Of a stretch of 45,340 nucleotides of DNA, positions 27,349-45,154 are shown in pieces. The notes under the pieces are model-generated. The model was not told where the DNA came from. It saw nothing but the letters and a program-made list of their open reading frames with translations, and searched no databases. Source of the DNA: Pseudomonas sp. BN411 (GTDB taxonomy: Bacteria > Pseudomonadota > Gammaproteobacteria > Pseudomonadales > Pseudomonadaceae); assembly GCF_029871235.1 (NCBI RefSeq), contig NZ_SSOM01000085.1, forward strand, positions 1-45,340, written 5' to 3'. Made by a program: the position numbers and the translations under genes. Within the stretch, counting starts at the first letter, position 1, and each line of letters opens with the position of its first letter.

Positions 27349-30300
27349 TCAGACGACGCCGATGAAGTCACTCGCTGCCAGGGCGACGTGCCCGACGAGG
27401 TCGATCTGGAAGTCGGCGGCATTGTTGTTGTTCACATTGCCCTCCACATAGGTGTGCTCTACACCGCCGACGTTGACGTAATGGAACCTCAGCTGGGCCT
27501 GTCCATTGAATTCGTTGCCAGCGCCATTCCATTCACCCAGGAAGCTGAAGTCCTGATTCCCTGCATTGCCAGGTCCGGTCGTCCTCGCATCGATCTGGCC
27601 GAGGTCGATGCGATCACTCCCCTGCTGGAAGTCGTTGATCACATCCCGGGTACCGCTGCTGGTACCCGAGTCGCTGAGCACGGCGAAAACGAAGGTATCG
27701 GCATCCGCACCGCCGCTGAGCAGGTCGCGTCCCGCACCGCCGGCCAGGACATCGGCACCGACACCGCCACTGAGGACGTCGTCGCCACCACCCCCGGCAA
27801 GCTGGTTGGCCAGTGCATCACCGGTCAGGGTATCGGCACCCGATCCGCCTATCACGCTCTCGATACCGCTCAACAGGTCACTGCCAATCTGACTGCTGCT
27901 GGCCGCCCCCGTGGCCAGGTTGACCACGGCTGCAGCTCCGGTGGCGGAAAGGTCGTAGGTATTCAGGCCGTCGTTACCTGCATAGACGTCATTGCCGTCG
28001 AACAGGCTGGCAATGAATCGGTCGTCACCCTGGCCACCGCTGGCACTGTCATTGCCCTGTCCTCCCACCAGTACGTCGTTACCCCCTGCACCCGCCAGGT
28101 TGTCATTGCCGCTTAGTCCTTCGAGGCGGTTGTCGGCCGAGCTGCCGGTGATCTGGTTGGCGCCGCTGCTGCCCAGGACGTTCTCGATGGATACCAGCAC
28201 ATCATTGCCGGTCTGCGCGCTGCTGGCGGTACCAGCGGTCAGGTCGACGCTGGCGTTGGCGGACGTGCCGGAGAGGTCATAGGTGTCCACACCGTCGCCG
28301 CCGTCGTAGTGGTCGTTGCCGTCGCCCACTGTCGCCACGAGGGTGTCGCTCCCCGCGCCGCCTTGCACGCTATCGTTGCCAGCCTGACCAATGAGCCGGT
28401 TGTTGCCGGTGTTACCCACCAGCAGGTTGTCCAGCCCGTTGCCCACACCATTGATGTTGGCGGTGCCGGTCAGCACCAGGTTTTCGACGTTGGCCGCGAG
28501 GTTGTAACTCACCGAGGACTGCACCGTGTCGCTACCACCGTTCAGGGCCTCGTTCACCGCGTCGCCGGTGGAGCCAACCACGTAGGTGTCGTTGCCCGCA
28601 CCGCCGCTCATGCTGTCATTGCCACTGCCACCATCCAGCAGGTCGCTGCCGTCGCCGCCGCTAAGTACATCGTTGCCGGCATAGCCGAGCATGACGTCCT
28701 GGAAGGCCGTCCCCACCAGAGCCGCGCGATCCAGGAAACCGCCCAGGCCGTTGTCGTTAAGGGAAGTGCCTTCGATGAAGCGCCCGACCGCTTCGGTGGG
28801 ATCGGAGTAGACCGTCTCCACTACCCCGTGGTTGTCGGTGAAGCTGACCGCTACCCGCAACTGCTGCCCGACCTGCGCGGCCACCGGTGCATAGGTCGAG
28901 GCAGTGGCGCCATTGATGGCAGCCCAGACGGCCCCCGAAAGTACCTGCCACTGGAAGCTGAACGCGCCAGCACCGGAGGGAATGCCATCGGCGTCCTGGA
29001 TGGCAACGGTGCTGGCGGTCAGGCGGTACTGCATCGGCAATGGCCGGCTGGGGGTGGTTGGAGCCGTGGCGAAGCCGGAAACCAGCGGTTTACCGGTAGG
29101 CAGCTGGTTATTGACGTCCAGGCTGACAGTGCGGTCCGCGAAGCGGACTTTCTCGATGCCGACGAGGATGTCGGTTGCATCGAGGTTGGCGGCACCGACG
29201 CGCTTGTCAGTGATCCTGAAGCCGCGAATCTCGTTGCTTCCCGAATTGGTATCGCTGATCAGGGTAATGCTGTAGTCGGCGAAATTGCCGCTGTAGACCG
29301 CCTCGTCAGCAACACCATCCGCCGTTCCACCGGCGTGGTTGTCGCCGAGTACGAAGCCCGAACGTGCGGCCTGCAGCCCGGTGAAGTGCTGGGCGAAACC
29401 CTGGGCGGCCAACAGGTGGTTGAGGTCGGCCAGGCCAATGGAGTCACCCACCAGCACATCGTTGCCGGCATTCCCCTGCACCACGTCGTCGCCGCTGCCG
29501 CCCACCAGCCAGTTCTCGTTGCCATCACCGATCAGGCCCGCCGTCGGGTTGGCAGGACTGGCGGGATTGGCCCGTGCGTCACTGAAGCGCGAACCGACCA
29601 GGCCTTCGATGTTCGCCAGCAAGGCGTTGAACGGCTGGAATAGCACGGCGGTGCCCGGCGCCGCGACGATGTTCTGCTGGTTCAGGTTTGCAGCGGCATC
29701 CAGCTGGATGTTCACATCGCTGAACGCTGCGATATCGAAGCCGACATCGCCGAGCGCTTCATCCCCGTCACCCTGTCCCGGCGCACCGCCGATACCCGGC
29801 AGGAGAATGTCGTCGCCCTCTTCCCCGAACAGCTGGTCGCCGGTCGAGCCGCCGGAAATGATGTCGTCCCCGGCTTCGGCAAAGAGGATGTCCGGCCCGT
29901 CGCCACCGTAGATTTCGTCGCTGCCATCGCCGCCGTGGACCAGGTCCGTGTCACCACCGGCGTCGATGTAGTCGTTGCCGGCGCCGCCGTAGAGCTCGTC
30001 GATCCCTGCCTCGCCGTAGAGATGGTCATTGCCATTGCCGCCGATGACGATGTCGATGGCGCCCGCACTGGTACCGGCATAGACGATGTCATCGCCGTCA
30101 CCGCCGTCGAGGAAGTCCTCGATGTCACCGCCGTAGATCACGTCATTGCCATTGCCGCCGTAGAGGTGGTCGGCGCCGGCCTTGCCGTCGAGGATGTCGT
30201 TTCCATCCTCGCCATAGCCGGTGTCGTCGCCATCACCCAGGTCCAGCCAGTCGGCATAGTCGGTCCCGGCTACCACCTCGTGGGAGTTGTAGCCCACCGC

Positions 30301-33300
30301 TGCGGTGCCATCCGGATTCTCGCCCTGGTCAGGACGGTAGTCACGGATGAATGTGCTGGACGCATGGGTTTCCGGGTTGATCAGGCTGAGCAGCAGGCCG
30401 TTCCCGCCGATCCCCCCGGAGCCACCGGTGGAGTAGACGCCCATTTGGTTGGCATCCACCAACCGGCCGTACTTGTGCTCGCTCTTGTAGGCAGTAGCAG
30501 TCGCCCCGGAGTCCTGGTAACTGAGCTCGATGTAGCTGTCCATGTAGCCGAACACATCACCCGCCAGGTGCCGGGCATCGGTGGTGCGCTCGATGATGTC
30601 CTTGAACTGTTCGGTGACCACTTGCTCGTTGAGGTTGGTCATGCCCGGCAGGCCGAGGTCGAGACGGAACAGGTAGTAGAAGCGGTCGCCATCCATGAGC
30701 CGCTCCATCTGGTCTTCGAATATGGCGTTGAAGGTGGTGCCGAGCTGGCCGGTGTAGACGTGTTTCTCTGCCAGTCCGCCAATCCACAGGTCGATGTGGT
30801 TGAAGCCATCGGAACCTGCGACGAAGTTTCCGTTCTGGTCGGCGGCATTGGACAGGAAGCGCGCTGCGTCTTCGGCGGTCACCACGCCACCGGCCCAGCT
30901 GACGTCTATCCCGGTCTGGTCGGCATCGATGATGGCCTGGGCATGCGCCACGTCGCCATCGAAGGAATACGCGCCGATGAAGTTCACCAGGGACTCAGGG
31001 TGGATCATGTTGTTGGCGAAGTCGCTCCAGCTCGTATAAGGCGTCAGCGCATCCACGATCAGGTTGGTGTGGTGCTGGGAGCCGGCCGGCGTTTGCCGCT
31101 CGGCGATCAGCGCATCGTGGATCTGCTGACGCGCCGCATTGAGCGTCGGTAGCCCCAGGTCACGGCCGCGCGCCAGGTTGATGGTGGCCAGGTCCAGCGG
31201 CTGGCCCAGCAGCCCCTGCTGCAGCGCCGGGGTGACAAGCTCGTCGATCTCGTTGCTTACCTGCCGCGTCATACCGAGGGCGATGGCGGTCGGGCCGATA
31301 TCGGCGAAGCCGCCGGGGTTGAGGAAGGCTTTCTCCAGGGCGTAGCGGGTTATGGCGCCAGTAAGGTCATAGACGCCGCTGGCATCGCGCTCCAGTGCGT
31401 CGATGGTTTCACGCAACTGCGAGTGCCCGAAGCGGAATGCCGCCTGGCCATACTCCAGGGAGATATTGGCGTTGATGCCGGAGTCGTAGGTGACGAACTC
31501 TGGCAGGTCGGGCGTGATCAGCCGCGCGTACTGGTCAATGGCAACGTGCTGGTACTCCATTTCCACCACCAGCTTGGCCCCCTGGAACAGCAGGTCATGG
31601 TTCCAGGAAACAGTCACGCCATCAGTCAGCGTGTAGTTGCCGGCCGCGTCGGTGTAGTAACCCCCGGCTCCGTTGTCGATGCCGACCTGCCAATTGTGGC
31701 GAACCCCAACATCGGCCTGGAGAATCTCCTGTTGCAGGTTGATCAACTGAACGTTGTGGTCTTCGTGGAAGACATGGTGCATGGCGGTCAGACCGAAGTT
31801 CTCGTTGGCACGGCCGTCGCCCGCGATGTAGTGGTCACCCACCGATTCCAGCAACAGCTCATTGGCAACCGCGTAATCGGCAGTGCCCGGATCGGCAAAG
31901 ATCGAGAAATCAGAGGGATTGACCAGACCGAACAGGGACTTGGTCGGGCCGTTGTCGTAGTGGAACAGGATCCCGTAGGGGTTCGTCGGGTCGAAGGTCA
32001 CGCCCAGCAGGTGACTGTCCAGGGCCATGAGGCGCGCCACATCGATGTGCACGTCGTCGAAGTGCGGGTTCATGTCCAGCAACAGGGCCTCGCGGGCATG
32101 GACCGCCTGGACGCCGGAAGTGGAAGGGTCCGCGTCCAGCACATGCCCTGCGTCGTCGCGCACGCGGAAATTGGCCAGGTCATCCCAGGTCAGGTCATCG
32201 CGCCCAGTGGCCACGATATGGGCGCGTAACTCGTTCAGGGTTGGCAGTGTCTGGTGGGTGAGCACGCCATTGAGCGTCCAGGCGGCCTCATCGCTCAGGG
32301 TAGTGCCATCGAACAGGCGAGCTCCCGGCCGGAACTGTCCAGGGTTGGACGGGTCAGCCACCCATTCGCGCAGCAGCTGAGTGACAGTGGCCTCGGAACC
32401 GTAAGTCTGGTTCTGGTCGATGTAAGGCGAGTCCAGGTTGAGGTATTGCGGATTGCCTGCGGCATCGACGCTGCCCACGCTGGCCCTGTGGACGGTGATC
32501 GAATGCACCGGCTGGCCGTCCGGGCCGATGGAGCCGTAGAGCGGGTCGTCGGGTGCCAGAGGAATGGTGATGGTGGCGGTCCGGCTCGGCTTGTCGATGA
32601 AGTCCAGGCCGTGGTCGAAGAACTGGCCGAACAGCGTGAACCAGCCGGTGGTCGAGGGGTCGCCGGAAACCGTGTTGAGATTGCGGATGAAGTACTGACC
32701 GCTACTGGGGGAGGTCGGATCGGCTTCGCCCAGTTGGCCGAGCAACCCCGGGTCGCTGACCACCGCCACACCATTGGCGTCATGCAGGATGTGGCCCATG
32801 GCGTCAGTGGCGAAGACCACGCCGCCACTGACGATGGTCTGGCTGACCATCCTCGGCGTGTAGTCCACCAGCGAGGCGAACGGGTCGGCGTAGGAAGCCG
32901 GCGTGCCCAACTCGGCGCCAGGGTGACTGGAGAGGTAATCCTGCCAGGCCGCGTTGTCGGCGTTCTGCTGCACGTACTGGCTGTAGTCCGGCAGGGTCAG
33001 GCGGATGAAGTCCTGGCCGAAGCTGCCCCAGGCATGGCCATCATGCGTGAGGTTGTTGAAAAAACCGGACACGTTGCGCAGGCCGATAGGGTCGCGCGCG
33101 CCGTTGTACCAGACGCTCTCTCCGGCTGGGATGGCCAGGGGATCGAAGCTGCCATCAGTACCCAGCACATGCACCGAACCATCCGATCCCGTGTAACCGA
33201 ACAGGGGGGTTCCATCGACCGTGTAACCCACCACGCGCAGGGTGGGGAAGCTGACCTGCTGCAACAGGTAGCTAATATCCTTCAGGTTGAGCGTGAAGCT

Positions 33301-33315
33301 TTTCAGGCTGTACAT
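27349..33315 (-). CDS. RTX heme peroxidase with one catalytic module and a type I secretion C-terminus
   Basis: 1,988 aa, complete. After ~200 N-terminal residues comes an animal-type heme peroxidase domain: distal His235 (FFDHGLD), catalytic Arg277 (VHRAS), FHEDHN near 518, proximal His631 (FRFGHSQL) and IGGLAEKHVYTG ... MDGDRFYYL. RTX nonapeptides follow at ~1025-1190, an Ig-like region at ~1400-1530, and a second RTX tract to ~1880. The end has a serralysin-type fold (TFVFAVLSDSGTSSG ... NDFQQGSDRIDL) and a C-terminal DFxxxLxGHVALAASDFIGV signal typical of type I export. Unlike the peroxidase at 1-10551, I see no DGxxGTxDD PERCAL insertions. ATG 33315 has gggaga upstream. It is divergent from a histidine kinase gene 68 bp away. 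No exporter genes are in the window. Confidence 0.93.
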   Translation of the reverse strand: MYSLKSFTLNLKDISYLLQQVSFPTLRVVGYTVDGTPLFGYTGSDGSVHVLGTDGSFDPLAIPAGESVWYNGARDPIGLRNVSGFFNNLTHDGHAWGSFGQDFIRLTLPDYSQYVQQNADNAAWQDYLSSHPGAELGTPASYADPFASLVDYTPRMVSQTIVSGGVVFATDAMGHILHDANGVAVVSDPGLLGQLGEADPTSPSSGQYFIRNLNTVSGDPSTTGWFTLFGQFFDHGLDFIDKPSRTATITIPLAPDDPLYGSIGPDGQPVHSITVHRASVGSVDAAGNPQYLNLDSPYIDQNQTYGSEATVTQLLREWVADPSNPGQFRPGARLFDGTTLSDEAAWTLNGVLTHQTLPTLNELRAHIVATGRDDLTWDDLANFRVRDDAGHVLDADPSTSGVQAVHAREALLLDMNPHFDDVHIDVARLMALDSHLLGVTFDPTNPYGILFHYDNGPTKSLFGLVNPSDFSIFADPGTADYAVANELLLESVGDHYIAGDGRANENFGLTAMHHVFHEDHNVQLINLQQEILQADVGVRHNWQVGIDNGAGGYYTDAAGNYTLTDGVTVSWNHDLLFQGAKLVVEMEYQHVAIDQYARLITPDLPEFVTYDSGINANISLEYGQAAFRFGHSQLRETIDALERDASGVYDLTGAITRYALEKAFLNPGGFADIGPTAIALGMTRQVSNEIDELVTPALQQGLLGQPLDLATINLARGRDLGLPTLNAARQQIHDALIAERQTPAGSQHHTNLIVDALTPYTSWSDFANNMIHPESLVNFIGAYSFDGDVAHAQAIIDADQTGIDVSWAGGVVTAEDAARFLSNAADQNGNFVAGSDGFNHIDLWIGGLAEKHVYTGQLGTTFNAIFEDQMERLMDGDRFYYLFRLDLGLPGMTNLNEQVVTEQFKDIIERTTDARHLAGDVFGYMDSYIELSYQDSGATATAYKSEHKYGRLVDANQMGVYSTGGSGGIGGNGLLLSLINPETHASSTFIRDYRPDQGENPDGTAAVGYNSHEVVAGTDYADWLDLGDGDDTGYGEDGNDILDGKAGADHLYGGNGNDVIYGGDIEDFLDGGDGDDIVYAGTSAGAIDIVIGGNGNDHLYGEAGIDELYGGAGNDYIDAGGDTDLVHGGDGSDEIYGGDGPDILFAEAGDDIISGGSTGDQLFGEEGDDILLPGIGGAPGQGDGDEALGDVGFDIAAFSDVNIQLDAAANLNQQNIVAAPGTAVLFQPFNALLANIEGLVGSRFSDARANPASPANPTAGLIGDGNENWLVGGSGDDVVQGNAGNDVLVGDSIGLADLNHLLAAQGFAQHFTGLQAARSGFVLGDNHAGGTADGVADEAVYSGNFADYSITLISDTNSGSNEIRGFRITDKRVGAANLDATDILVGIEKVRFADRTVSLDVNNQLPTGKPLVSGFATAPTTPSRPLPMQYRLTASTVAIQDADGIPSGAGAFSFQWQVLSGAVWAAINGATASTYAPVAAQVGQQLRVAVSFTDNHGVVETVYSDPTEAVGRFIEGTSLNDNGLGGFLDRAALVGTAFQDVMLGYAGNDVLSGGDGSDLLDGGSGNDSMSGGAGNDTYVVGSTGDAVNEALNGGSDTVQSSVSYNLAANVENLVLTGTANINGVGNGLDNLLVGNTGNNRLIGQAGNDSVQGGAGSDTLVATVGDGNDHYDGGDGVDTYDLSGTSANASVDLTAGTASSAQTGNDVLVSIENVLGSSGANQITGSSADNRLEGLSGNDNLAGAGGNDVLVGGQGNDSASGGQGDDRFIASLFDGNDVYAGNDGLNTYDLSATGAAAVVNLATGAASSSQIGSDLLSGIESVIGGSGADTLTGDALANQLAGGGGDDVLSGGVGADVLAGGAGRDLLSGGADADTFVFAVLSDSGTSSGTRDVINDFQQGSDRIDLGQIDARTTGPGNAGNQDFSFLGEWNGAGNEFNGQAQLRFHYVNVGGVEHTYVEGNVNNNNAADFQIDLVGHVALAASDFIGVV

Positions 33316-33383
33316 AACGATCTCCCACTGCCCTGTCCGGGCATTGCCAGGGGCCTGGGAGAAAGCATCGAGGAGTCCGGCGA

Positions 33384-34913
33384 ATGCCCGCAGATGCGAA
33401 GGTCGAACCAAATCAGCAGACCTTGGGACAAGTCGGCGCCCCGACTTTGGTCCAACCCGACCCCGGACCAATGTCGGGGCCGCACCGCTCCTGGGGAAGC
33501 CGTATGCGCCAGCGGATTCGCCAGCTGAAGCGCTCCACTCAGTTCGTCATCGCCGCCAGCCTGATCCTCGGCCTGACCATGAGCCTGGTGGGCAACCTGG
33601 TGAGCCAGCGCATCGAGCGGGCGGCCGTGCAGTCGGCGGCGCAGGCCGGTGCCGTCTACATGGAAAGCTTCCTCGAACCCTTCGTGCAGGAGCTGGCGAG
33701 AACCCAGGACATTCCCCCGGAAAGCGCGGCGGCCATCGACCGGCTGATCATCAACAGCAGCCTCAACCGCCACGTGGCTTCGGTGAAGATCTGGCGCCCG
33801 GATGGGACTGTGATCTACAGCACCGACAAGTCGGTAGTGCACCGCAAGTTCCCTACCGATGAGATCGACGAGGCATTGCAGGGCCAAATCGTCACCGACC
33901 TGGAAGACCTCGGCCAGGACGAGAACGCGTTCGAGCGCAGTCTCAAGGTGCCCCTCTACGAAATCTACGCGCCCCTGCGGGAAACCGGCTCGGGCAAGGT
34001 GGTAGCGGTGGGTGAGTTCTATGAACGCGCTGACCAGTTGGAACGGGAAATCCGCACCGTGCGCCTGCAGGTCTGGGCAGTGGTTGGCTCTGCCACGCTG
34101 GCGATGCTGGGCTTGCTCTTCTTCGTGGTACGCCGCGGCGAGCGCATCATCGAGCGCCAGCAGATAGCCTTGAAACAGCGGATGGTCGAACAGGCACGCC
34201 TGCATGCCCGCAATACCCAACTGCAGCGCCGCATCACCACTGCCAACCAGGAATTCTCGCGCATCAGTGAACTGACCCTGCGACGCCTGGGTGCCGACCT
34301 GCATGACGGCCCGGCACAGTTGCTGACACTCATCCTGGTCCGCCTGGATGAACTCGCCCAACTACGCGAGCGCCTGCAACAGCAAGGCGAACCATTCGAC
34401 GGCGATGCCCTGGAAACCTTGCGCAGTGCCGGTCAGGATGCCCTCCGCGAAATCCGCGACATTTCCCGTGGACTGGCGGTCCCTGAAATCAGCGAACTGG
34501 GGCTGGAACAGGTGCTGCGCCTGGTGGTGCAGCGCCACGAACAGCGCACCGATACCCAGGTGGAGCTGGATATCCAGCCGTTGCCTGCCGACGCCACGAT
34601 GTCACTGAAGATCTGCCTCTATCGCTTCACCCAGGAAGCCCTGAACAATGCCGTGATGCACGCAGGTGGCCAAGGCCAGAAACTCTCGGCCCGTATGGTT
34701 GAGGGGCAACTGGAGGTACAGGTGGCCGACTCGGGCAATGGTTTCGTCCCCAGCGACCAGGCCAGCAATGGGCAAGGCCGCCGCCGACTGGGGCTCGCCG
34801 GCATGCGTTACCGAGTGGAAGCACTGGGTGGGCAGTTCGACATCCATTCAGCGCCAGGCGAAGGCACCCGCGTCAGTGCCCGCTTCAGGATGGACGACGT
34901 AGCGGCCGGCTAG
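33384..34913 (+). CDS. NarL-type sensor histidine kinase (HisKA_3) with periplasmic sensor
   Basis: 509 aa. Membrane helices near residues 48-70 (FVIAASLILGLTMSLVGNLV) and 231-252 (VWAVVGSATLAMLGLLFFVV) bracket a ~160-aa periplasmic domain, probably a PAS/Cache-like sensor (VKIWRPDGTVIYSTDKSVV). The HisKA_3 box holds phospho-acceptor His307 (GADLHDGPAQ), and the ATPase has N-box QEALNNAVMHAGG and DSGNGF / RLGLAGMRYRVEALGG. ATG 33384 has gaggag 8 nt upstream. The probable partner is the response regulator at 34910, convergent on the other strand, with stop codons sharing CTAG. The ligand is unknown; the gene is divergent from a secreted peroxidase. Confidence 0.9.
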   Translation: MPADAKVEPNQQTLGQVGAPTLVQPDPGPMSGPHRSWGSRMRQRIRQLKRSTQFVIAASLILGLTMSLVGNLVSQRIERAAVQSAAQAGAVYMESFLEPFVQELARTQDIPPESAAAIDRLIINSSLNRHVASVKIWRPDGTVIYSTDKSVVHRKFPTDEIDEALQGQIVTDLEDLGQDENAFERSLKVPLYEIYAPLRETGSGKVVAVGEFYERADQLEREIRTVRLQVWAVVGSATLAMLGLLFFVVRRGERIIERQQIALKQRMVEQARLHARNTQLQRRITTANQEFSRISELTLRRLGADLHDGPAQLLTLILVRLDELAQLRERLQQQGEPFDGDALETLRSAGQDALREIRDISRGLAVPEISELGLEQVLRLVVQRHEQRTDTQVELDIQPLPADATMSLKICLYRFTQEALNNAVMHAGGQGQKLSARMVEGQLEVQVADSGNGFVPSDQASNGQGRRRLGLAGMRYRVEALGGQFDIHSAPGEGTRVSARFRMDDVAAG

Positions 34914-37511: not shown

Positions 37512-37880
37512 CTACTCCACCCCAAGCTCCACCACATCCCCTTGCAACCTGACCGGCCATACACGCAGCTTCTGCTCCGGATACTCCAGGCAAGAACCGT
37601 CCTCCAGGCGGTAGTGCTGCTTGTAGAGCGGCGAGGCGATCACCAGGGAGCCGCCCAGGTGGCCGACGATGCCACGGCCGATCACGTTGGCATGGGCCAT
37701 TGGGTCGTGGTTCTGCACCGCGAACAACTGCTCGCCCTCCTCGCCGTTCAGATAGAAGAGCGCCACCTGGATATTGCTCACCCAGGCCACCACGCCCGAG
37801 TTGGGCACCAGGTCTTCCCGGCGGCAGACGGGCTGCCAGCGGCCCCGGACTTCACTGCGTTGCAGGCTTGCTTCGATCAT
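37512..37880 (-). CDS. nirD: Assimilatory nitrite reductase (NADH) small subunit NirD
   Basis: 122 aa with the Rieske-like fold of NirD (DLVPNSGVVAWVSNIQVALFYL, VQNHDPMAHANVIGRGIVG, ASPLYKQHYRLEDGSCLEYPEQKLRVWPVRL) but without the Cys-His pairs that hold a 2Fe-2S cluster, as is normal for this subunit. It assists NirB in reducing nitrite to ammonium. ATG 37880 overlaps the nirB stop by one base (TGATG), so translation is coupled. It is the last gene of the operon. Confidence 0.94.
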   Translation of the reverse strand: MIEASLQRSEVRGRWQPVCRREDLVPNSGVVAWVSNIQVALFYLNGEEGEQLFAVQNHDPMAHANVIGRGIVGHLGGSLVIASPLYKQHYRLEDGSCLEYPEQKLRVWPVRLQGDVVELGVE

Positions 37881-40432
37881 CAGACCACCTCCTCGGCTAC
37901 AGGGATCAGCGTGAGCTCGGCCGCCGTCACCGGACGGATCTGCCCACGTTCATTGACGAAATGGATATCCGGATCACCGCGCCCGTCGTTGACGAAGGTG
38001 CGGAAGCGCTTGAGCTTCTCCGGGTCCTTGATGGCGTTGGCCCACTCGCATTCGTAGCGGTCCACCACCAGTTGCATCTGTGCTTCGAGCTCCGCACCCA
38101 GTCCCAGGCTGTCGTCGATGATCACCGCCTTGAGGTAATCCAGGCCGCCCTCCAGGCTCTCACGCCAGACCGAGGTGCGCTGCAGCTTGTCGGCGGTGCG
38201 GATGTAGAACATCAGGAAGCGGTCGATGTAGCGGATCAGGGTTTCGTCATCGAGATCGGTGGCGAACAGCTCGGCGTGGCGCGGACGCATGCCGCCGTTG
38301 CCGCAGACGTAGAGGTTCCAGCCCTTCTCAGTGGCGATCACACCCACGTCCTTGCTTTGCGCCTCGGCGCATTCGCGGGTGCAGCCGGACACGGCGAACT
38401 TCAGCTTGTGCGGCGAGCGCAGGCCCTTGTAGCGATTCTCGATGTCCAGGGCCATCTTCACGCTGTCCTGGACGCCGTAGCGGCACCAGGTGCTGCCCAC
38501 GCAGGACTTCACGGTACGGGTGGACTTGCCATAGGCGTGGCCGGTTTCAAATCCGGCGGCGATCAGCTCGCCCCAGATATCCGGCAACTCGTGGAGCTGG
38601 GCGCCGAACAGGTCGATGCGCTGGCCGCCGGTGATCTTGGTGTAGAGCTTGTACTTCTTCGCCACCTCGCCAATGGCGATCAGGCCTTCCGGGGTGATCT
38701 CGCCGCCGGGGATGCGTGGTACCACCGAATAGGTGCCGTTCTTCTGCATGTTGGCCATGAAGGTGTCGTTGGTGTCCTGCAGCGGCACCAGCCAGGGGTT
38801 CTGGATCGGCCGGTTCCAGCAGGAAGCGAGGATGGAGCCGATGGCCGGCTTGCAGATCTCGCAGCCGACGTGGCCACGGCCATGCTTGGCGAGCATCTCC
38901 TCGAAGGTCTCGATGCCTTCCACCCGCACCAGTGCATAGAGCTCCTGGCGGGTGTAGGCGAAGTGCTCGCAGAGGCTCTTGTCCACAGCCACGCCACGGG
39001 CCGACAGTTCGTGCTCGACCACCTGCTTGAGCAGTGCCGCGCAGCCGCCGCAACCGGTGGCCGCCTTGGTGCAGGCCTTGACCCCGGCGACGTCGGTGCA
39101 GCCACTGTCGATGGCGGAGCAGATGGCGCCCTTGCTGACGTTGTGGCAGGAGCAGACGGTGGCGGTGGCCGGCAGTGCATCGGCGCCCAGGGCCGGCGCG
39201 CCCTCACCCACCGGCAGGATCAGGCTGGACGGGTCGGCCGGCAGCTTGATGCCGTTCTGCACGTACTGCAGCAGGGTGTCGTAGTAGCTGTTGTCACCCA
39301 CCAGCACCGCACCCAGGGCCTGCTTGCCGTCGGCGGAAACCACCAGGCGGCGATAGCTGGAGGTGGCTTCGTCGATGAAGCGGTAGCTGCGGGCGCCCGG
39401 CAGCGCACCGTGAGCGTCGCCGATGGAGCCCACGTCCACGCCCAGCAGCTTCAGCTTGGTGGACATATCGGCACCGATGAAGGGATCGGCGTCTTCACCA
39501 CAGAGCTGCGCTGCGACGCTGCGGGCCATCTGGTAACCGGGGGCGACCAGGCCAAAGATGCTGCCGTTCCAGGCGGCGCACTCACCAATGGCGTAGATGT
39601 CCGCGTCCGAGGTCAGGCATTGGCCGTCGATGGCCACGCCGCCGCGCGCGCCCAGTTCCAGGCCGCACTGGCGGGCCAGGGCGTCCTGCGGGCGGATGCC
39701 GGCAGAGAAGACGATCAGGTCGGTTTCGAGGAAATCCTCACCGGCGAAGTTCATCCGGTAACGGTATTCCTCGCCGGCACTGATGGACTGGGTCGCCTTC
39801 GAGAGATGCACCCCCACGCCGAGGTCTTCGATGCGAGCCTTGAGCGCCTGGCCGCCCTGGTCATCGAGCTGCACCGGCATCAGGCGCGGGGCGAACTCCA
39901 CCACATGGGCGTCGAGCCCCAGGGACTTCAGCGCGTTGGCGGCTTCCAGGCCCAGCAGGCCGCCGCCCACCACCACACCACGGCGAGCCTGGGCGGCAGC
40001 GGCGCGGATGGTGTCGAGATCGGCCAAGGTGCGGTAGACCAGGCGCGAGTCGCCTTCGGCCCCTTCAATGGGAGGCACGAAGGGATAGGAACCCGTCGCC
40101 AGTACCAGCTTGTCGTAGGCCAGGCTGCCATTGGCAGTGATCACCTCACGACGCTCGCGGTCGATCTCCAGTACCGGCACGCCCAGGTGCAGGGTCACGC
40201 CCGGCGTCTGATAGAGGCTGGCCTCGCTCAGGGCCAGGGATTCGGCATCGCGGCCCGTGAAGTATTCGGAGAGGTGCACGCGGTCATAGGCGCGCAGCGG
40301 CTCCTCGCTGAAGACTTCGATGCGATAGCGATCCAGGGCGCCGCGCTCGACCAGTTGCTCCACACAGTGGTGGCCGACCATGCCGTTGCCGATGACGACC
40401 AGCGTTTGCACATCAGGAGTGGAAGTGTTCAT
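37880..40432 (-). CDS. nirB: Assimilatory nitrite reductase (NADH) large subunit NirB
   Basis: 850 aa, cytoplasmic; reduces nitrite to ammonium with six electrons from NADH. Domains in order: FAD/NADH pyridine-nucleotide reductase (VVIGNGMVGHHCVEQL at the start, GVVVGGGLLGLEAANAL near 150), a BFD-type 2Fe-2S domain (CSCHNVSKG and GCGGCAALL near 430-465), then sulfite/nitrite reductase ferredoxin-like and siroheme domains. The 4Fe-4S/siroheme cysteines lie in SCVGSTWCRYG (~645) and SGCTRECAEA (~686). The start at ATG 40432 is chosen because it begins the FAD domain and lies downstream of the leader terminator; a longer frame to 40825 runs through the leader and is rejected. Confidence 0.94.
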   Translation of the reverse strand: MNTSTPDVQTLVVIGNGMVGHHCVEQLVERGALDRYRIEVFSEEPLRAYDRVHLSEYFTGRDAESLALSEASLYQTPGVTLHLGVPVLEIDRERREVITANGSLAYDKLVLATGSYPFVPPIEGAEGDSRLVYRTLADLDTIRAAAAQARRGVVVGGGLLGLEAANALKSLGLDAHVVEFAPRLMPVQLDDQGGQALKARIEDLGVGVHLSKATQSISAGEEYRYRMNFAGEDFLETDLIVFSAGIRPQDALARQCGLELGARGGVAIDGQCLTSDADIYAIGECAAWNGSIFGLVAPGYQMARSVAAQLCGEDADPFIGADMSTKLKLLGVDVGSIGDAHGALPGARSYRFIDEATSSYRRLVVSADGKQALGAVLVGDNSYYDTLLQYVQNGIKLPADPSSLILPVGEGAPALGADALPATATVCSCHNVSKGAICSAIDSGCTDVAGVKACTKAATGCGGCAALLKQVVEHELSARGVAVDKSLCEHFAYTRQELYALVRVEGIETFEEMLAKHGRGHVGCEICKPAIGSILASCWNRPIQNPWLVPLQDTNDTFMANMQKNGTYSVVPRIPGGEITPEGLIAIGEVAKKYKLYTKITGGQRIDLFGAQLHELPDIWGELIAAGFETGHAYGKSTRTVKSCVGSTWCRYGVQDSVKMALDIENRYKGLRSPHKLKFAVSGCTRECAEAQSKDVGVIATEKGWNLYVCGNGGMRPRHAELFATDLDDETLIRYIDRFLMFYIRTADKLQRTSVWRESLEGGLDYLKAVIIDDSLGLGAELEAQMQLVVDRYECEWANAIKDPEKLKRFRTFVNDGRGDPDIHFVNERGQIRPVTAAELTLIPVAEEVV

Positions 40433-40472: not shown

Positions 40473-40507
40473 AAAAAAAAGCGCCTGGGACTCGCCGTCC
40501 CAGGCGC
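40473..40507 (-). terminator. Leader terminator of nirBD (attenuator)
   Basis: On the minus strand GCGCCTGGGAC (40507-40497), loop GGCGA, GTCCCAGGCGC (40491-40481), then eight T (40480-40473): a perfect 11-bp stem and a textbook intrinsic terminator, placed 40 nt upstream of the nirB ATG. Its 5' arm overlaps the second ANTAR-type hairpin (40501-40516), so the two cannot form together. Confidence 0.92.
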
Positions 40508-40588
40508 CTTTGCCTGTTCGTTCATGGGTGCTGCCGGGCCACACTGCCTGGCGCACCTGTCAACCCGGGGAAGTGATCGCCATTGATC
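40501..40588 (-). promoter_or_regulatory. ANTAR-type (NasT/NasR) antitermination leader of nirBD
   Basis: Two hairpins with hexanucleotide loops carrying A1 and G4, the ANTAR target signature. P1 is GATC[AATGGC]GATC (40588-40575), with a weak 4-bp stem. P2 is CAGGC[AAAGGC]GCCTG (40516-40501), a perfect 5-bp stem. The 58-nt gap contains an accessory ggtgc/gcacc hairpin (40557-40527) that could bring P1 and P2 together. The P2 3' arm and loop are also the 5' arm of the leader terminator. Known: NasR of Klebsiella and NasT proteins bind such leaders to permit nas/nir expression with nitrate. The NasST genes are not in the window. Confidence 0.85.
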
Positions 40589-40635
40589 TGCCGGGCCGCC
40601 CGCCACGCTGTTCGTGGTGAGCCTGGAACTGCCTA

Positions 40636-40651
40636 TGCAGTGGCTGTGCCA
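40636..40651 (-). promoter_or_regulatory. Sigma-54 promoter of nirBD
   Basis: Minus strand TGGCACAGCCACTGCA: GG at 40650-40649 and GC at 40638-40637, exactly 10 nt apart; one mismatch to TGGCACRN4TTGCW. The start site would lie near 40625, giving a leader of about 195 nt with both ANTAR hairpins. NtrC control under nitrogen limitation is the expected input. Confidence 0.8.
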
Positions 40652-40775
40652 GATTGCCGAACCGCGCTTCCCTCTCTCTCCCCAACGCCAGAAACGACGC
40701 GGCTTCCAGCAGATCCGGCAGCTGCCTCGACCGTTGCCACTGGAGAATCCAGCAAGCATCCGGACAAGAACCAAA

Positions 40776-40793
40776 ACGGTGCGAATGCACCGT
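40776..40793. promoter_or_regulatory. Perfect palindrome midway between the divergent nir and nas promoters
   Basis: acggtgc-gaat-gcaccgt (7-4-7). It lies 125 bp from the nirB and 100 bp from the nas sigma-54 promoters, a good place for a shared enhancer. The half sites resemble NtrC's GCAC/GTGC but in everted order, so NtrC binding is uncertain. Confidence 0.5.
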
Positions 40794-40893
40794 CCGCGCC
40801 CCATCCTGAAGCTCATCCAGCACATTGCGAATCAAGCGGGAATTTACCCGCAAGCAGCGTCCCGCCAAGCCTTCACGCGCATCACAGGGGACT

Positions 40894-40909
40894 TGGCATG
40901 TGCCTTGCG
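40894..40909 (+). promoter_or_regulatory. Sigma-54 promoter of the nitrate reductase gene
   Basis: tggcatgtgccttgcg: GG at 40895-40896 and GC at 40907-40908, 10 nt apart; two small deviations from consensus. It predicts a start near 40920, three bases before the first ANTAR hairpin, and a leader of about 107 nt. Confidence 0.82.
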
Positions 40910-40922
40910 ATAGCTGCAACAA

Positions 40923-40966
40923 GGCAATCAATGCCGATTGCCCTACCCCACGACAAAGGCGCCGTG
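40923..40966 (+). promoter_or_regulatory. ANTAR-type (NasT/NasR) antitermination leader of the nitrate reductase gene
   Basis: P1 is ggcaatc[AATGCC]gattgcc (40923-40942), a perfect 7-bp stem. P2 is cacgac[AAAGGC]gccgtg (40949-40966), 6 positions with one A-C mismatch, separated from P1 by 6 nt. Both loops have A1 and G4, and the P2 loop is identical to that of the nirB leader. The P1 core atcaatgccgat matches atcaatggcgat of nirB at 11 of 12 positions. P2 shares gcgccgtg with the 5' arm of the terminator at 40959, so binding P2 should block termination. Confidence 0.88.
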
Positions 40967-41004
40967 TCTCCCCCGTTCCGACGGTGGGTGGCATGGCGCT
41001 TTTT
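40959..41004 (+). terminator. Leader terminator of the nitrate reductase gene (attenuator)
   Basis: gcgccgtg (from 40959) pairs with catggcgc (to 40999) and the inner ccccgt/acggtggg pair as well; the long stem has a mismatch and a bulge, loop tccg, and ends in ttttt (41000-41004). It lies 23 nt before the ATG. Its 5' arm overlaps ANTAR hairpin P2. Confidence 0.82.
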
Positions 41005-41026: not shown

Positions 41027-44000
41027 ATGGCGAACAAGACAGTGCGAAGCGTGTGTCCCTATTGCGGCGTCGGCTGCGGCATCGTCATGGAGGTGGCGGA
41101 CAACCGCGTGGTCAAGGTGAGCGGCGACAAGTCCCACCCGACCAACTTCGGCCGCCTCTGCACCAAGGGGAACACCTGCGCCCAGCCGTTGACCGACTCG
41201 GGCCGCATGGAGCATGCCTACCTGCGCCACGAACGCAGCCGCGACCCGGTGCGCGCAGGCATCGACCAGGCCATCGGCGACACCGCCCGGCGCCTGCGCG
41301 AGCTGCTCGACGCCCACGGCCCGGACGCCATTTCCTTTTATGTGTCCGGGCAGATGTCCCTGGAGGCCCAGTACCTGGCCAACAAGCTGGCCAAGGGATT
41401 CATCCGCACCCGTCACATCGAATCCAACTCCCGGCTGTGCATGGCCAGCGCGGGCAGCGGCTACAAGCTCTCCCTCGGCTCGGATGGCCCGCCCGGCTCC
41501 TATCAGGATTTCGACAAGGCCGACCTGTTCCTCGTGACCGGCGCCAACATGGCCGACTGCCACCCGATCCTCTTCCTGCGCATGATGGACAGGGTCAAGG
41601 CCGGGGCGAAGCTGATTGTGGTCGACCCACGCCGCACCGCCACCGCCGACAAGGCCAGCCTTTACCTGCCGATCAGGCCGGGCACCGACCTCGCCCTGCT
41701 CAACGGCCTGCTCCACCTGCTGCACAGGAACGGCCATACCGACCCGGCCTTCATCGCCGCCCATACCCGGGGCTGGGAGGCCATGCCGGACTTCCTCGCG
41801 GACTACACGCCGGATCGCGTCGCCGCCATCACCGGGCTGCCCGAAGCGGATATCCGCAAGGCCGCCCAGTGGATCGGCGAAGCACGGGACTGGATGAGCT
41901 GCTGGACCATGGGCCTCAACCAGAGCACCCATGGCACCTGGAACACCAACGCCCTGTGCAACCTGCACCTGGCCACCGGCGCCATCTGCCGGCCGGGCAG
42001 CGGCCCTTTCTCCCTCACCGGCCAGCCCAACGCCATGGGCGGACGCGAAATGGGCTACATGGGCCCCGGCCTGCCCGGCCAGCGCTCGTTGCTGGTGGAC
42101 GCCGACCGGGCCTTCATCGAAGACCTGTGGCAGCTACCGCACGGCCACCTGCGCCAGGACGGCGGCAACGGCACCGTTGCCATGTTCGAGGCCATGGGCG
42201 CAGGCGACATCAAGGCCTGCTGGATCATCTGCACCAACCCGGCGGCCACCGTGCCCAACCGTCGCCTGGCCATCGAAGGCCTGCAGGCGGCCGAACTGGT
42301 GATCACCCAGGACGCCTTCCTCGATACCGAAACAAACCGCTACGCCGACATCCTCCTGCCCGGTGCCCTCTGGGCCGAGGCGGAAGGCGTGATGATCAAC
42401 TCCGAGCGTACCCTCACCCTCACCCAGAAGGCCGTGGACGCCCCCGGCGACAGCCTGCCGGACTGGCAGATCATCGCCCGCGTCGCCTGCGCCATGGGCT
42501 TCGAAGAGGCCTTCAGCTACGCCTCCGCCGCCGAGGTGTTCGAGGAAATCAAACGGGCATGGAACCCGAAGACCGGCTACGACATCCGCGGCGCCAGCCA
42601 TGAACTGCTGCGCCAGGGACCGATGCAATGGCCCTGTGCGCCGGGCAGCTCCGCCAACGCGCGCAACCCCGTCCGCTACCTCAACGACGGCGCCAGCCAG
42701 GCGCCCAGGACCGATACCGACAGCAATCGCCCGGCCATCGCCTTCGCCACCGAAGACGGCAAGGGCGTGTTCCTGGCCCGCCCCCACATGGAGCCGGCGG
42801 ACCTGCCCGACGACGAGTTTCCCCTGATACTCAACACCGGGCGCGTGCAGCACCAGTGGCACACCCTGACCAAGACCGGCAAGGTCGCCACCCTGAACAA
42901 GCTCAACCCCGGCCCCTTCGTGGAGATCCACCCGAGCGATGCCAGCCGCCTCGGCATCGTCGACAAGGGCCAGGTGGAAGTGCGCTCCCGCCGTGGCCGC
43001 GCGGTGCTGCCGGCGGTGGTCAGCGACCGGGTGCTGCCGGGCAACTGCTTCGCGCCCTTCCACTGGAACGACCGCTACGGCGACGACCTGGCGATCAACG
43101 CGGTAACCAGCGACGCCATCGACCCCATTTCGCTGCAGCCGGAGTTCAAGTACAGCGCCGTTGCCCTGGCACCCGTCGCTCCGACCAGCCCCCAGCTCAT
43201 CCCCTTGGTAGAAGTCGAGCCGGTCGCGGCCAGCGCCGCTGCCGGTTTTCCGGAGGAACTCGCCGACATGCCGATCAACGCCTTCGCCCGTCTGCTGAAC
43301 CTCGATGTCAGCGCCGAGCTCTGCCTGGCGCCCACCGAACAGCGCTACCTCCAGGGTTACCTGCTCGGCCTGCGCAGCGAAGAGAGCCGCAAGCTGGGTG
43401 GCGTGCCCACCTTGCCGACCTGCGCTCCACTTGCCCCGGAAACCCGCCTGCTGCTGGACGGCATCCTCGCCGGGCTGTTCTCCCGTAGCTGGGAGGCGCC
43501 CGCGCCTGTAGCAGCCGAGGCACCGGTTGCGGAAAAGCCGCTGCTGGTGCTCTGGTGCTCGCAAACCGGCAATGCGGAAAGCTTCGCCACCCTCTGCGCC
43601 GACAGCTTCAAGGCCGACGGCCGCACGGTACAGGTACGCTCCATGGACCTTGCCCAACCTGCCGATCTGGCTGGCGTCGGTGCCGCGCTGCTGATCGCCA
43701 GCACCTTCGGCGACGGCGACCCGTCCGACAATGGCGCCGCCTTCTGGGACGCCCTGAATACGGACGGTGTCCCCTCACTGTCCGGGCTGGACTTTGCCGT
43801 GCTGGCCATGGGTGACTCCAACTACGACCAGTTCTGCGGCTTTGGCCGCAAGCTCGACGCCCGCCTCGAAGCCCTCGGCGCGCGCCGCCTTGCGCCACGG
43901 GTGGACTGCGAACCGGAGTACGAAGAACCGGCGCAGGCCTGGCTGGACAACGTCCGCGCCGCCCTGGCCGGTAACTTGGTCACGCAACCCGTGCCGGAAA

Positions 44001-45154
44001 CCATCGGAGCACCGTCGGAGGAAGCCGATGCGCCCACCTACAGCCGCCAGCGCCCCCTGGTGTCCCGCCTGCTGCGCAACCCGGTGCTGAATGCGCCTGG
44101 CTCCAGCAAGGAAACCCGGCAGATCGTGCTCGACCTCAAGGGCAGCGGCTTGCGCTATCAGGCCGGCGATGCCCTGGGGGTGTGGCCGAGCAACTGCCCG
44201 AATCTGGTGAACGAAGTGCTGGCCGCACTGAAGCTGGACGGTGACCAGCCGGTGGAGGTGAAAGACCAGGGCGCGATGCCACTGTCGACCGCCCTGGGTC
44301 GCCACTTCGACATCGCGAAGATCACTCCCGACCTGCTGCGCTTCGTCGCCGAACGTTCGGCGAGCGGCGAACTCACGGCCCTGCTGGAACCAGCGAACAA
44401 GGCCGGGCTGGACGACTGGCTCTGGGGACGGCAACTGGCCGACCTGCTACGCGCCCATTCCGTCCGGATCAGCGCGGATGAACTGCTGGGCCGGCTGAAA
44501 CGCCTGCAACCGCGCCTCTACTCCATCGCATCCAGTCCCCTGGCGACGCCGGATGAGGTGCATCTGACAGTGTCTACTGTGCGCTACCAGTGCGAGGGCC
44601 AGGACCGCGCCGGCATCTGCTCGGCCTTCCTCGCCGACCGCGCGGGCCAGGGCGATGTGTCGATCTTCATCCAGAAGTCAGCCCACTTCCGCGTACCAGC
44701 CGACCCCGAGCGGCCGATGATCATGGTCGGCCCCGGCACCGGCATCGCCCCTTTCCGCGCCTTCCTCCAGGAACGCCAGGCATCGGGCGCCAGAGGCCGC
44801 AACTGGCTGTTCTTCGGCGAACAGCGGGAAGCCACCGACTTCTACTACCGCGACGAGCTGGAAGCCTGGCAGGCCTCCGGCCACCTGCACCGCCTGGACA
44901 CCGCCTTCTCCCGCGACCAGGCGGAGAAGGTCTATGTGCAGCAACGCATGCTGGAACAAGGCGCCGAGCTGTGGCGCTGGCTGGAGGACGGCGCGCATTT
45001 CTATGTCTGTGGCGACGCCAGTCGCATGGCCAAGGACGTGGACGCGGCGCTCAAGGCGGTGGTGCGGGAGCACGGCGGGATGAGCGCAGCACAAGCCGAG
45101 GCCTACGTCAGCGCCCTGGCCAGGGACAAGCGCTATGTGCGGGATGTGTATTGA
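41027..45154 (+). CDS. Assimilatory nitrate reductase fused to a CysJ-like NADPH diflavin reductase
   Basis: 1,375 aa. The N-terminal ~700 residues are a molybdenum bis-MGD nitrate reductase: 4Fe-4S cysteines 10, 13, 17 and 45 (CPYCGVGC ... LCTKG), Mo ligand Cys138 (SRLCMAS), GPFSLTGQPNAMGGREMG, and a C-terminal molydopterin-binding domain (LNTGRVQHQWHTLTKTG). A CysJ-type linker follows, then flavodoxin/FMN (~837-980; LWCSQTGNAES, STFGDGDPSDN), FAD (RLYSIASS) and NADPH (MVGPGTGIAPFRAFLQER) domains, ending KRYVRDVY as in CysJ. Electrons can run NADPH-FAD-FMN-FeS-Mo in one chain, reducing nitrate to nitrite for NirBD. ATG 41027 has aagg upstream and starts the 4Fe-4S domain; upstream in-frame extension runs through the leader and is rejected. 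Such fusions are annotated in other pseudomonads. Confidence 0.93.
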   Translation: MANKTVRSVCPYCGVGCGIVMEVADNRVVKVSGDKSHPTNFGRLCTKGNTCAQPLTDSGRMEHAYLRHERSRDPVRAGIDQAIGDTARRLRELLDAHGPDAISFYVSGQMSLEAQYLANKLAKGFIRTRHIESNSRLCMASAGSGYKLSLGSDGPPGSYQDFDKADLFLVTGANMADCHPILFLRMMDRVKAGAKLIVVDPRRTATADKASLYLPIRPGTDLALLNGLLHLLHRNGHTDPAFIAAHTRGWEAMPDFLADYTPDRVAAITGLPEADIRKAAQWIGEARDWMSCWTMGLNQSTHGTWNTNALCNLHLATGAICRPGSGPFSLTGQPNAMGGREMGYMGPGLPGQRSLLVDADRAFIEDLWQLPHGHLRQDGGNGTVAMFEAMGAGDIKACWIICTNPAATVPNRRLAIEGLQAAELVITQDAFLDTETNRYADILLPGALWAEAEGVMINSERTLTLTQKAVDAPGDSLPDWQIIARVACAMGFEEAFSYASAAEVFEEIKRAWNPKTGYDIRGASHELLRQGPMQWPCAPGSSANARNPVRYLNDGASQAPRTDTDSNRPAIAFATEDGKGVFLARPHMEPADLPDDEFPLILNTGRVQHQWHTLTKTGKVATLNKLNPGPFVEIHPSDASRLGIVDKGQVEVRSRRGRAVLPAVVSDRVLPGNCFAPFHWNDRYGDDLAINAVTSDAIDPISLQPEFKYSAVALAPVAPTSPQLIPLVEVEPVAASAAAGFPEELADMPINAFARLLNLDVSAELCLAPTEQRYLQGYLLGLRSEESRKLGGVPTLPTCAPLAPETRLLLDGILAGLFSRSWEAPAPVAAEAPVAEKPLLVLWCSQTGNAESFATLCADSFKADGRTVQVRSMDLAQPADLAGVGAALLIASTFGDGDPSDNGAAFWDALNTDGVPSLSGLDFAVLAMGDSNYDQFCGFGRKLDARLEALGARRLAPRVDCEPEYEEPAQAWLDNVRAALAGNLVTQPVPETIGAPSEEADAPTYSRQRPLVSRLLRNPVLNAPGSSKETRQIVLDLKGSGLRYQAGDALGVWPSNCPNLVNEVLAALKLDGDQPVEVKDQGAMPLSTALGRHFDIAKITPDLLRFVAERSASGELTALLEPANKAGLDDWLWGRQLADLLRAHSVRISADELLGRLKRLQPRLYSIASSPLATPDEVHLTVSTVRYQCEGQDRAGICSAFLADRAGQGDVSIFIQKSAHFRVPADPERPMIMVGPGTGIAPFRAFLQERQASGARGRNWLFFGEQREATDFYYRDELEAWQASGHLHRLDTAFSRDQAEKVYVQQRMLEQGAELWRWLEDGAHFYVCGDASRMAKDVDAALKAVVREHGGMSAAQAEAYVSALARDKRYVRDVY

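Follow-up and report, generated by a model that had tools for sequence, protein, structure and literature searches.

Known Leader Systems

The closest described relative of the leaders reported here is the NalA leader, which precedes nirBD-PA1779-cobA in P. aeruginosa and nirBD in P. putida. As reviewed, NalA has a sigma-54- and NtrC-dependent promoter and a terminator before nirB, and NasT, acting as the antiterminator, is needed for read-through (PMC12830290). NasS releases NasT on nitrate or nitrite, and c-di-GMP weakens NasT binding (PMC12830290, the latter citing Nie et al. 2024, P. putida). The basic NasT/NalA mechanism is already published. NasT also binds the nasA leader in Paracoccus (PMC3795266). 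In Bradyrhizobium, NasT hairpins were predicted at nirA and narK, and narK rose, not fell, in a nasT mutant; that the narK leaders of B. diazoefficiens may bind NasT is already in print (PMC6759348).

The EutV-bound leaders of E. faecalis eut and the NasR/nasF system share two features with the leaders described below, namely A1/G4 hexaloops and a P2 hairpin that overlaps the terminator (PMC3369931, PMC8934654). The linkers between the two eut hairpins are 5–12 nt long, and a linker of 14 nt, or one extended by 20 nt, is harmful (PMC3369931, PMC8934654); in the EutV study, the 20-nt longer linker abolished activity, and the dimer was argued to bind one hexaloop at a time, moving from P1 to P2 (PMC8934654). 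Our literature search, which covered titles and the starts of abstracts, returned no three-hexaloop leader and no account of the narK RNA as an ANTAR target; either may yet be published.

The nirB/nasC Locus

We compared these systems with a 45,340-nt stretch of Pseudomonas sp. BN411 (the window). Profile search of the window placed nirB and nirD leftward from 40432 and nasC rightward from 41027, with a gap of 594 bp between nirB and nasC. The genes and promoter elements are as follows.

37880 to 40432, minus strand: nirB, assimilatory nitrite reductase large subunit, ATG at 40432 (TIGR02374, 1067.6 bits, cut-off 578.35)
37512 to 37880, minus strand: nirD, nitrite reductase small subunit (TIGR02378, 98.8 bits, cut-off 74.65)
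41027 to 45154, plus strand: nasC, assimilatory nitrate reductase fused to a CysJ-like flavoprotein reductase (NF047855 and cysJ; named by domain order)
40637 to 40651, minus strand: sigma-54-like promoter of nirBD, TGGCACAGCCACTGC, TGGCAC-N5-TGC (sequence pattern)
40894 to 40908, plus strand: sigma-54-like promoter of nasC, TGGCATGTGCCTTGC, TGGCAT-N5-TTGC (sequence)
40770 to 40782, plus strand: possible shared NtrC site, ACCAAAACGGTGC, midway between both promoters

The nasC product matched NF047855 over residues 3–715 (452.7 bits) and cysJ over residues 828–1375 (596.3 bits), both under the whole-protein cut-offs. Among the matches listed, the closest named NirB was that of Pseudomonas sp. 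JM0905a, 98% identical to the window NirB. Elsewhere in the window (27349–33471, minus strand), a 2040-aa frame reads by eye as a haem-peroxidase-like region with RTX-type glycine-aspartate repeats behind it.

Each strand of the gap carried a sigma-54-like promoter, hexaloop hairpins with A1 and G4 and a terminator that overlaps P2, which is the anatomy given in the original prediction. It had also reported the same P2 loop, AAAGGC, on both strands and P1 cores that differ by one base in 12 (ATCAATGCCGAT and ATCAATGGCGAT), and both points held. The arrangement was compared with 1000 dinucleotide shuffles of the gap, read on both strands (2000 strands), and scored for a P1, a P2 and an overlapping terminator, with a P1–P2 loop distance of 14–80 and a terminator score of at least 15. 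None of the 2000 shuffled strands passed, and the real strands scored 17.1 and 21.3 against a threshold that was set after both had been seen. Fold z-scores were −5.86 (plus) and −4.06 (minus), and 0 of 200 shuffles were as stable on either strand. A general terminator scan, restricted to loops of 3–8, listed neither leader terminator.

Conservation was followed in named nirB loci, the best 80 of at least 586 confirmed; in this and all other counts, the relatives are not independent samples. A like sigma-54 element lay 60–320 nt before P2 in 80/80 named nirB leaders, and the nirB P2 sequence was likewise present in every one. nasC was divergent from nirB in 43 of the 80 loci, and 41 of these 43 carried both P2 elements. 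Within the genus, 12 loci around narK RNA matches were inspected: ten showed both leaders with P1, a middle A1/G4 loop and P2, one the nasC side only (L216) and one only the nasC P2 (L220).

The possible NtrC site was called with the NtrC consensus. ACCAAAACGGTGC was the sole window match at up to one mismatch, where 0.10 were expected. As a general feature, a shared NtrC enhancer was rejected: CCAAAACRGTGC was found mid-gap in only 13/43 divergent relatives (CCAAAAC anywhere in 17/43), and pairing by distance linked a site of this kind to both promoters in two loci only. Next to this possible site, at 40774–40795 and likewise midway between the promoters, is the perfect inverted repeat CGGTGC-GAAT-GCACCG, accompanied on the minus strand by a short run of T.

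The nasC Leader

The plus-strand leader contains the following elements.

40923 to 40942, plus strand: P1 hairpin, ggcaatc-AATGCC-gattgcc, hexaloop AATGCC at 40930–40935 (sequence pattern, covariation)
40949 to 40966, plus strand: P2 hairpin, cacgac-AAAGGC-gccgtg, hexaloop AAAGGC at 40955–40960; its second pair is an A.C mismatch
40959 to 41004, plus strand: intrinsic terminator of the nasC leader, 5' arm shared with P2 (score and fold)
40895 to 40965, plus strand: narK RNA (RF03032) match covering the promoter, P1 and most of P2 (52.0 bits, E 2.8e-8, gathering score 43.2)

Two A1/G4 hexaloop hairpins, AATGCC and AAAGGC, are thus followed by a terminator that shares P2; the loops are 25 nt apart and the linker is 6 nt. 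On this anatomy, the nasC leader looks like a standard P1/P2 ANTAR target. The original prediction had named an ANTAR covariance-model search as a check on both leaders; among the Rfam models, the plus leader is a member of the narK RNA family by score, and the minus leader fell under every cut-off. The match includes the whole nasC promoter except its first base. The RF03032 model spans the promoter, P1 and P2 and holds both hexaloop sequences, but Rfam pairs only P1, and the P2 hexaloop is unpaired in its structure line. That the narK RNA family is an ANTAR target is our own reading.

In relatives, the nasC P2 motif yACGACAAAGRCGCCGT was present in 41 of the 43 divergent loci (L029 and L030 lacked that form); in two of the 41, L063 and L066, the pattern used detected no nasC P1. 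The stem of nasC P1 covaries: 28 distinct rows gave 20 double-change cells, against a maximum of 13 in 500 shuffles and 10 in slid versions. The A.C mismatch at the second P2 pair is part of the motif and so recurs in the same 41/43 loci; the window nirB P2 is fully paired. The mismatch perhaps weakens the nasC P2 against the terminator. Eight of the 41 nasC leaders with the P2 motif had a P1–P2 distance of 37–45 nt and no convincing middle hairpin: two had no candidate, in four the best one had only three pairs, and in the remaining two it was A-T-rich, with an 8-nt loop.

The nirB Leader

The minus-strand leader is longer and contains the following elements.

40575 to 40588, minus strand: distal P1 hairpin, gatc-AATGGC-gatc, hexaloop AATGGC at 40584–40579 (pattern and fold)
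40527 to 40557, minus strand: middle hairpin, Pm, hexaloop AGTGTG (A1/G4) at 40545–40540 (predicted fold; relatives with a covarying stem)
40501 to 40516, minus strand: P2 hairpin, caggc-AAAGGC-gcctg, hexaloop AAAGGC at 40511–40506 (CAGGCAAxGRYGCC in 80/80 named loci)
40473 to 40509, minus strand: intrinsic terminator of the nirB leader, 5' arm shared with the P2 loop and 3' arm

The distal P1 is predicted to sit on an outer stem (40598–40591/40568–40561). The leader has A1/G4 hexaloop hairpins and a terminator that shares P2. The original prediction had treated it as a plain P1/P2 pair, which did not survive: 73 nt separate the P1 loop from the P2 loop, and a third hairpin, 40557–40527, stands between them. 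In contrast to the eut leaders, whose linkers are 5–12 nt, the nirB linker is 58 nt and holds a third hexaloop.

The best Rfam match of this leader was P11 (RF00625), at 20.5 bits against a gathering score of 70. From position and sequence, we take P11 to be NalA. NalA-type sequences share the order P1, middle hairpin, P2 with the window nirB leader, but their P2 reads GGAC-AAAGGC-GTCC instead of CAGGC-AAAGGC-GCCTG and their P1–P2 distance is about 41 instead of 73. The window leader is no member of P11 by score; it would, however, work like NalA. Both leaders of the gap look like ANTAR targets on their sequence.

The distal P1 motif was found in 66 of the 80 named nirB leaders, 54–87 nt from P2. 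The pattern used did not find it in the other 14; in one of these, P. resinovorans (L023), P1 is present and displaced by an insertion of ~140 nt. The core of that insertion, TTTACGAGTTGTAAATGAG, had one other match among the loci compared (L125), read as the same place of the same strain. The nirB P1 gave three double-change cells, which is not beyond shuffles (mean 2.5, maximum 6); this hairpin is too conserved for covariation to tell either way, and conservation is the sole evidence there. As a detector, a short-pattern search with AAAGGCGCC was not useful alone (98 scattered matches, 42 for the reversed control) and was dropped.

A Third Hairpin in the nirB Leader

RNAfold placed an extra hairpin with the hexaloop AGUGUG between nirB P1 and P2, and in the full-length fold the terminator displaced P2 only. 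The 50 nt that precede P2 were scanned in relatives for the strongest hairpin, with loop letters unconstrained and with any A-T or G-T pair that closed a loop shorter than 6 opened. Leaders of the window type had a middle 6-nt loop in 42/80 cases. Among their 27 distinct middle hexaloops, 24 had G4 and 20 had both A1 and G4, whereas the same scan gave fractions of 0.33 and 0.10 in shuffles and 0.28 and 0.07 in nirB coding windows.

A second set was drawn from NalA-type leaders. It comprised the 30 best P11 loci, 40 chosen further down the list and the genome's own (71, not every match), and was reduced to 70 by one unanchored locus (L149). A middle hexaloop was found in 61/70, with G4 in 61/61 and A1 and G4 in 52/61. 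The 20 distinct hexaloops of this set had G4 in 20/20 and A1 with G4 in 13/20 (shuffles, 0.31 and 0.13). Without the pair-opening rule, G4 was still present in 18/19 distinct window-type and 13/13 distinct NalA-type hexaloops. Binomial values for the middle-loop G4 ignore relatedness and are not to be taken as probabilities. The stems of A1/G4 middle hairpins also covary, with 29 double-change cells in 34 distinct rows (maximum 20 in shuffles, 10 in slid versions), in a subset pre-chosen for an A1/G4 loop and at least three pairs; in all the covariation counts, P1 included, rows were anchored on the loop and closing pairs, so the closing pairs carry no weight. This suggests that the nirB leader is a three-hexaloop variant with P1, Pm and P2, and NasT probably contacts the middle hexaloop as well.

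Pm could instead be a mere spacer that compacts the long linker and brings P1 near P2, NasT never touching it. This is plausible, if not the reading we favor: the strongest middle loop was 4, 5 or 7 nt in the other 38/80 window-type leaders (some of which, such as L034 and L040, also hold a lower-scoring A1/G4 hairpin), and RNAfold predicts a compact P1–Pm–P2 array in the window. A spacer, however, should not keep its loop bases, and the G4 and A1/G4 counts in the distinct hexaloops of both sets stand well above shuffles.

A further reading, which seems to us unlikely, is that Pm serves as the functional P1 and that the distal nirB hairpin is a relic or a structure with another purpose. It would agree with syringae-type leaders, in which the distal loop starts with G (GACGTG, GATGAA) and the middle loop, AACGNN, has the usual P1 sequence, and with P. 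resinovorans, where the insertion parts P1 from Pm and leaves Pm–P2 intact. The distal hairpin nevertheless keeps a P1-like loop in the 66 leaders counted above, and in a number of these it is Pm that is without an A1/G4 hexaloop.

NasT-Like Proteins and Co-Occurrence with Leaders

The genome of the window encoded two PF03861 matches, both NasT-like proteins with a receiver (Response_reg) and an ANTAR domain, and each gene adjoined a NasS-like gene. ANTAR-domain and nasST-like genes were therefore present, as the original prediction had called for. No NIT-ANTAR protein of the NasR type was found among the PF03861 matches of this genome. The neighbors gave only weak SsuA_fam (NCBIfam) matches (41.8 and 39.9 bits vs. 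163.5), and we presume them to be NasS from their position and resemblance. Aligned with EutV (6wsh/6ww6), NasT1 was identical at R142, K149, E160, Y164, Arg168 and Met172, with a numbering shift of two, and differed at Lys147, Asn173, Arg175 and Arg177. The EutV residues reported to contact G4 are Arg142, Lys149, Glu160 and Tyr164 (PMC8934654), and NasT2 equals NasT1 at the G4-contact positions.

Across 148 genomes of the family, leaders were searched with RF00625 (E ≤ 0.01) and RF03032 (E ≤ 0.001) and NasT at E ≤ 1e-10. All 112 leader-bearing genomes encoded an ANTAR protein, 105 of them NasT and seven a NIT-ANTAR protein without NasT. Of 36 leaderless genomes, 34 were without an ANTAR protein; the exceptions had NasT (G097) or another ANTAR protein (G019). 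It is very improbable that the leaders are attenuators or small RNA genes without an ANTAR partner, with coincidental hexaloops. NalA has been described as a small RNA (PMC3973561), yet the 112/112 co-occurrence and the dependence of NalA on NasT reported in the review (PMC12830290) both speak against such a view.

Within the genus, nine of 18 genomes had two ANTAR genes, eight had one and one had none (G004); the last was also without narK RNA and P11. Half of the ten genus loci with both leaders came from genomes with a single ANTAR gene; there, if NasT acts on these leaders in the first place, one and the same NasT has to act on both. The original prediction of a single NasT-like protein for both leaders is accordingly possible in principle, but the genome of the window has two NasS–NasT-like pairs.

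Other Leaders in the Genome

Further leaders in the same genome (contigs C82 and C53) were judged by a sigma-54-like promoter, hexaloops and a terminator, a rule under which others may be missed.

C82:65846–65917: leader of a NarK-family transporter gene (70.7 bits; loop distance 25)
C82:62426–62562: leader of a NirB-fragment/CobA-like pair (P11, 94.3 bits; loop distance 41)
C82:73325–73398, minus strand: leader of nasS1 (35.2 bits; loop distance 22)
C53:31658–31731, plus strand: leader of nasS2 (34.1 bits; P2 loop GATGGC, with G1 and not A1)
C53:33998–34040: leader of an nrtA-like gene (18.7 bits, E 0.98; loop distance 27)
C53:37342–37414: leader of a porin-like gene (45.1 bits; loop distance 26)

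The nasS1, nasS2 and nrtA leaders scored under the RF03032 cut-off and were counted by anatomy. That both nasS-like genes have leaders of their own suggests that NasT feeds back on nasST expression.

Behind the NalA-type leader on C82, a second complete nirBD was considered and rejected, the gene there being 372 aa long and covering NirB positions 1–332 only (386 bits, cut-off 578.35). This NirB fragment (6287–7405, minus strand, of C82:55000–62600, L221) is followed by a frame that we read from its translation as CobA-like; the full nirBD, with nasC, is at the window locus instead. The C82 locus looks like a reduced form of the P. aeruginosa nirBD-PA1779-cobA operon. Behind the porin-like gene, which has a leader of its own, come a chemoreceptor-like protein and a small membrane protein; the latter is NIT-like by eye, with no Pfam match (L012, 13343–16756, plus strand).

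Proposed Mechanism and Implications

Both leaders are very probably antitermination switches opened by NasT, the nasC leader with the standard P1/P2 pair and the nirB leader with three hexaloops. Each transcript would begin at its sigma-54 promoter and continue through a leader closed by an intrinsic terminator. When both nitrate and nitrite are absent, NasS would hold NasT, the terminator would swallow P2 and transcription would stop. With nitrate, freed NasT would bind the hexaloop hairpins and keep P2 folded, so that transcription could enter nasC and nirBD. Gating of both transcripts by nitrate and NtrC, as the original prediction had it, would follow by analogy with the published NasT/NalA work.

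With its 58-nt linker, the nirB leader has a distance problem that a middle hexaloop would solve. A wider and more doubtful extension is that, throughout the Pseudomonas family, the nirBD leader is an ANTAR target with three hexaloops, on which a NasT dimer is relayed from the distal to the middle hairpin and on to P2, bridging a distance that abolishes two-loop EutV switches. Narrow two-loop leaders (narK, nasC, nasS, nrtA) and wide three-loop ones (nirB) could then differ in the strength or timing of their response to the same free NasT. The eight long-spaced nasC leaders without a convincing middle hairpin weaken the case for an obligatory relay; together with the 38/80 nirB leaders without a middle hexaloop, they indicate that a relay is not always needed and that NasT seems less strict about distance than EutV.

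If NasT does contact Pm, this would be relevant to an issue raised by the EutV-RNA structure, namely whether an ANTAR dimer steps from one hexaloop to the next. The narK RNA and P11 families of Rfam would become annotatable as ANTAR targets. For the organism, the paired leaders would place nitrate reductase and nitrite reductase under one RNA gate. Together with the similar leaders before the nitrate/nitrite transporter, nrtA-like and porin-like genes and both nasS-like genes, they would form a small, uniform NasT regulon.
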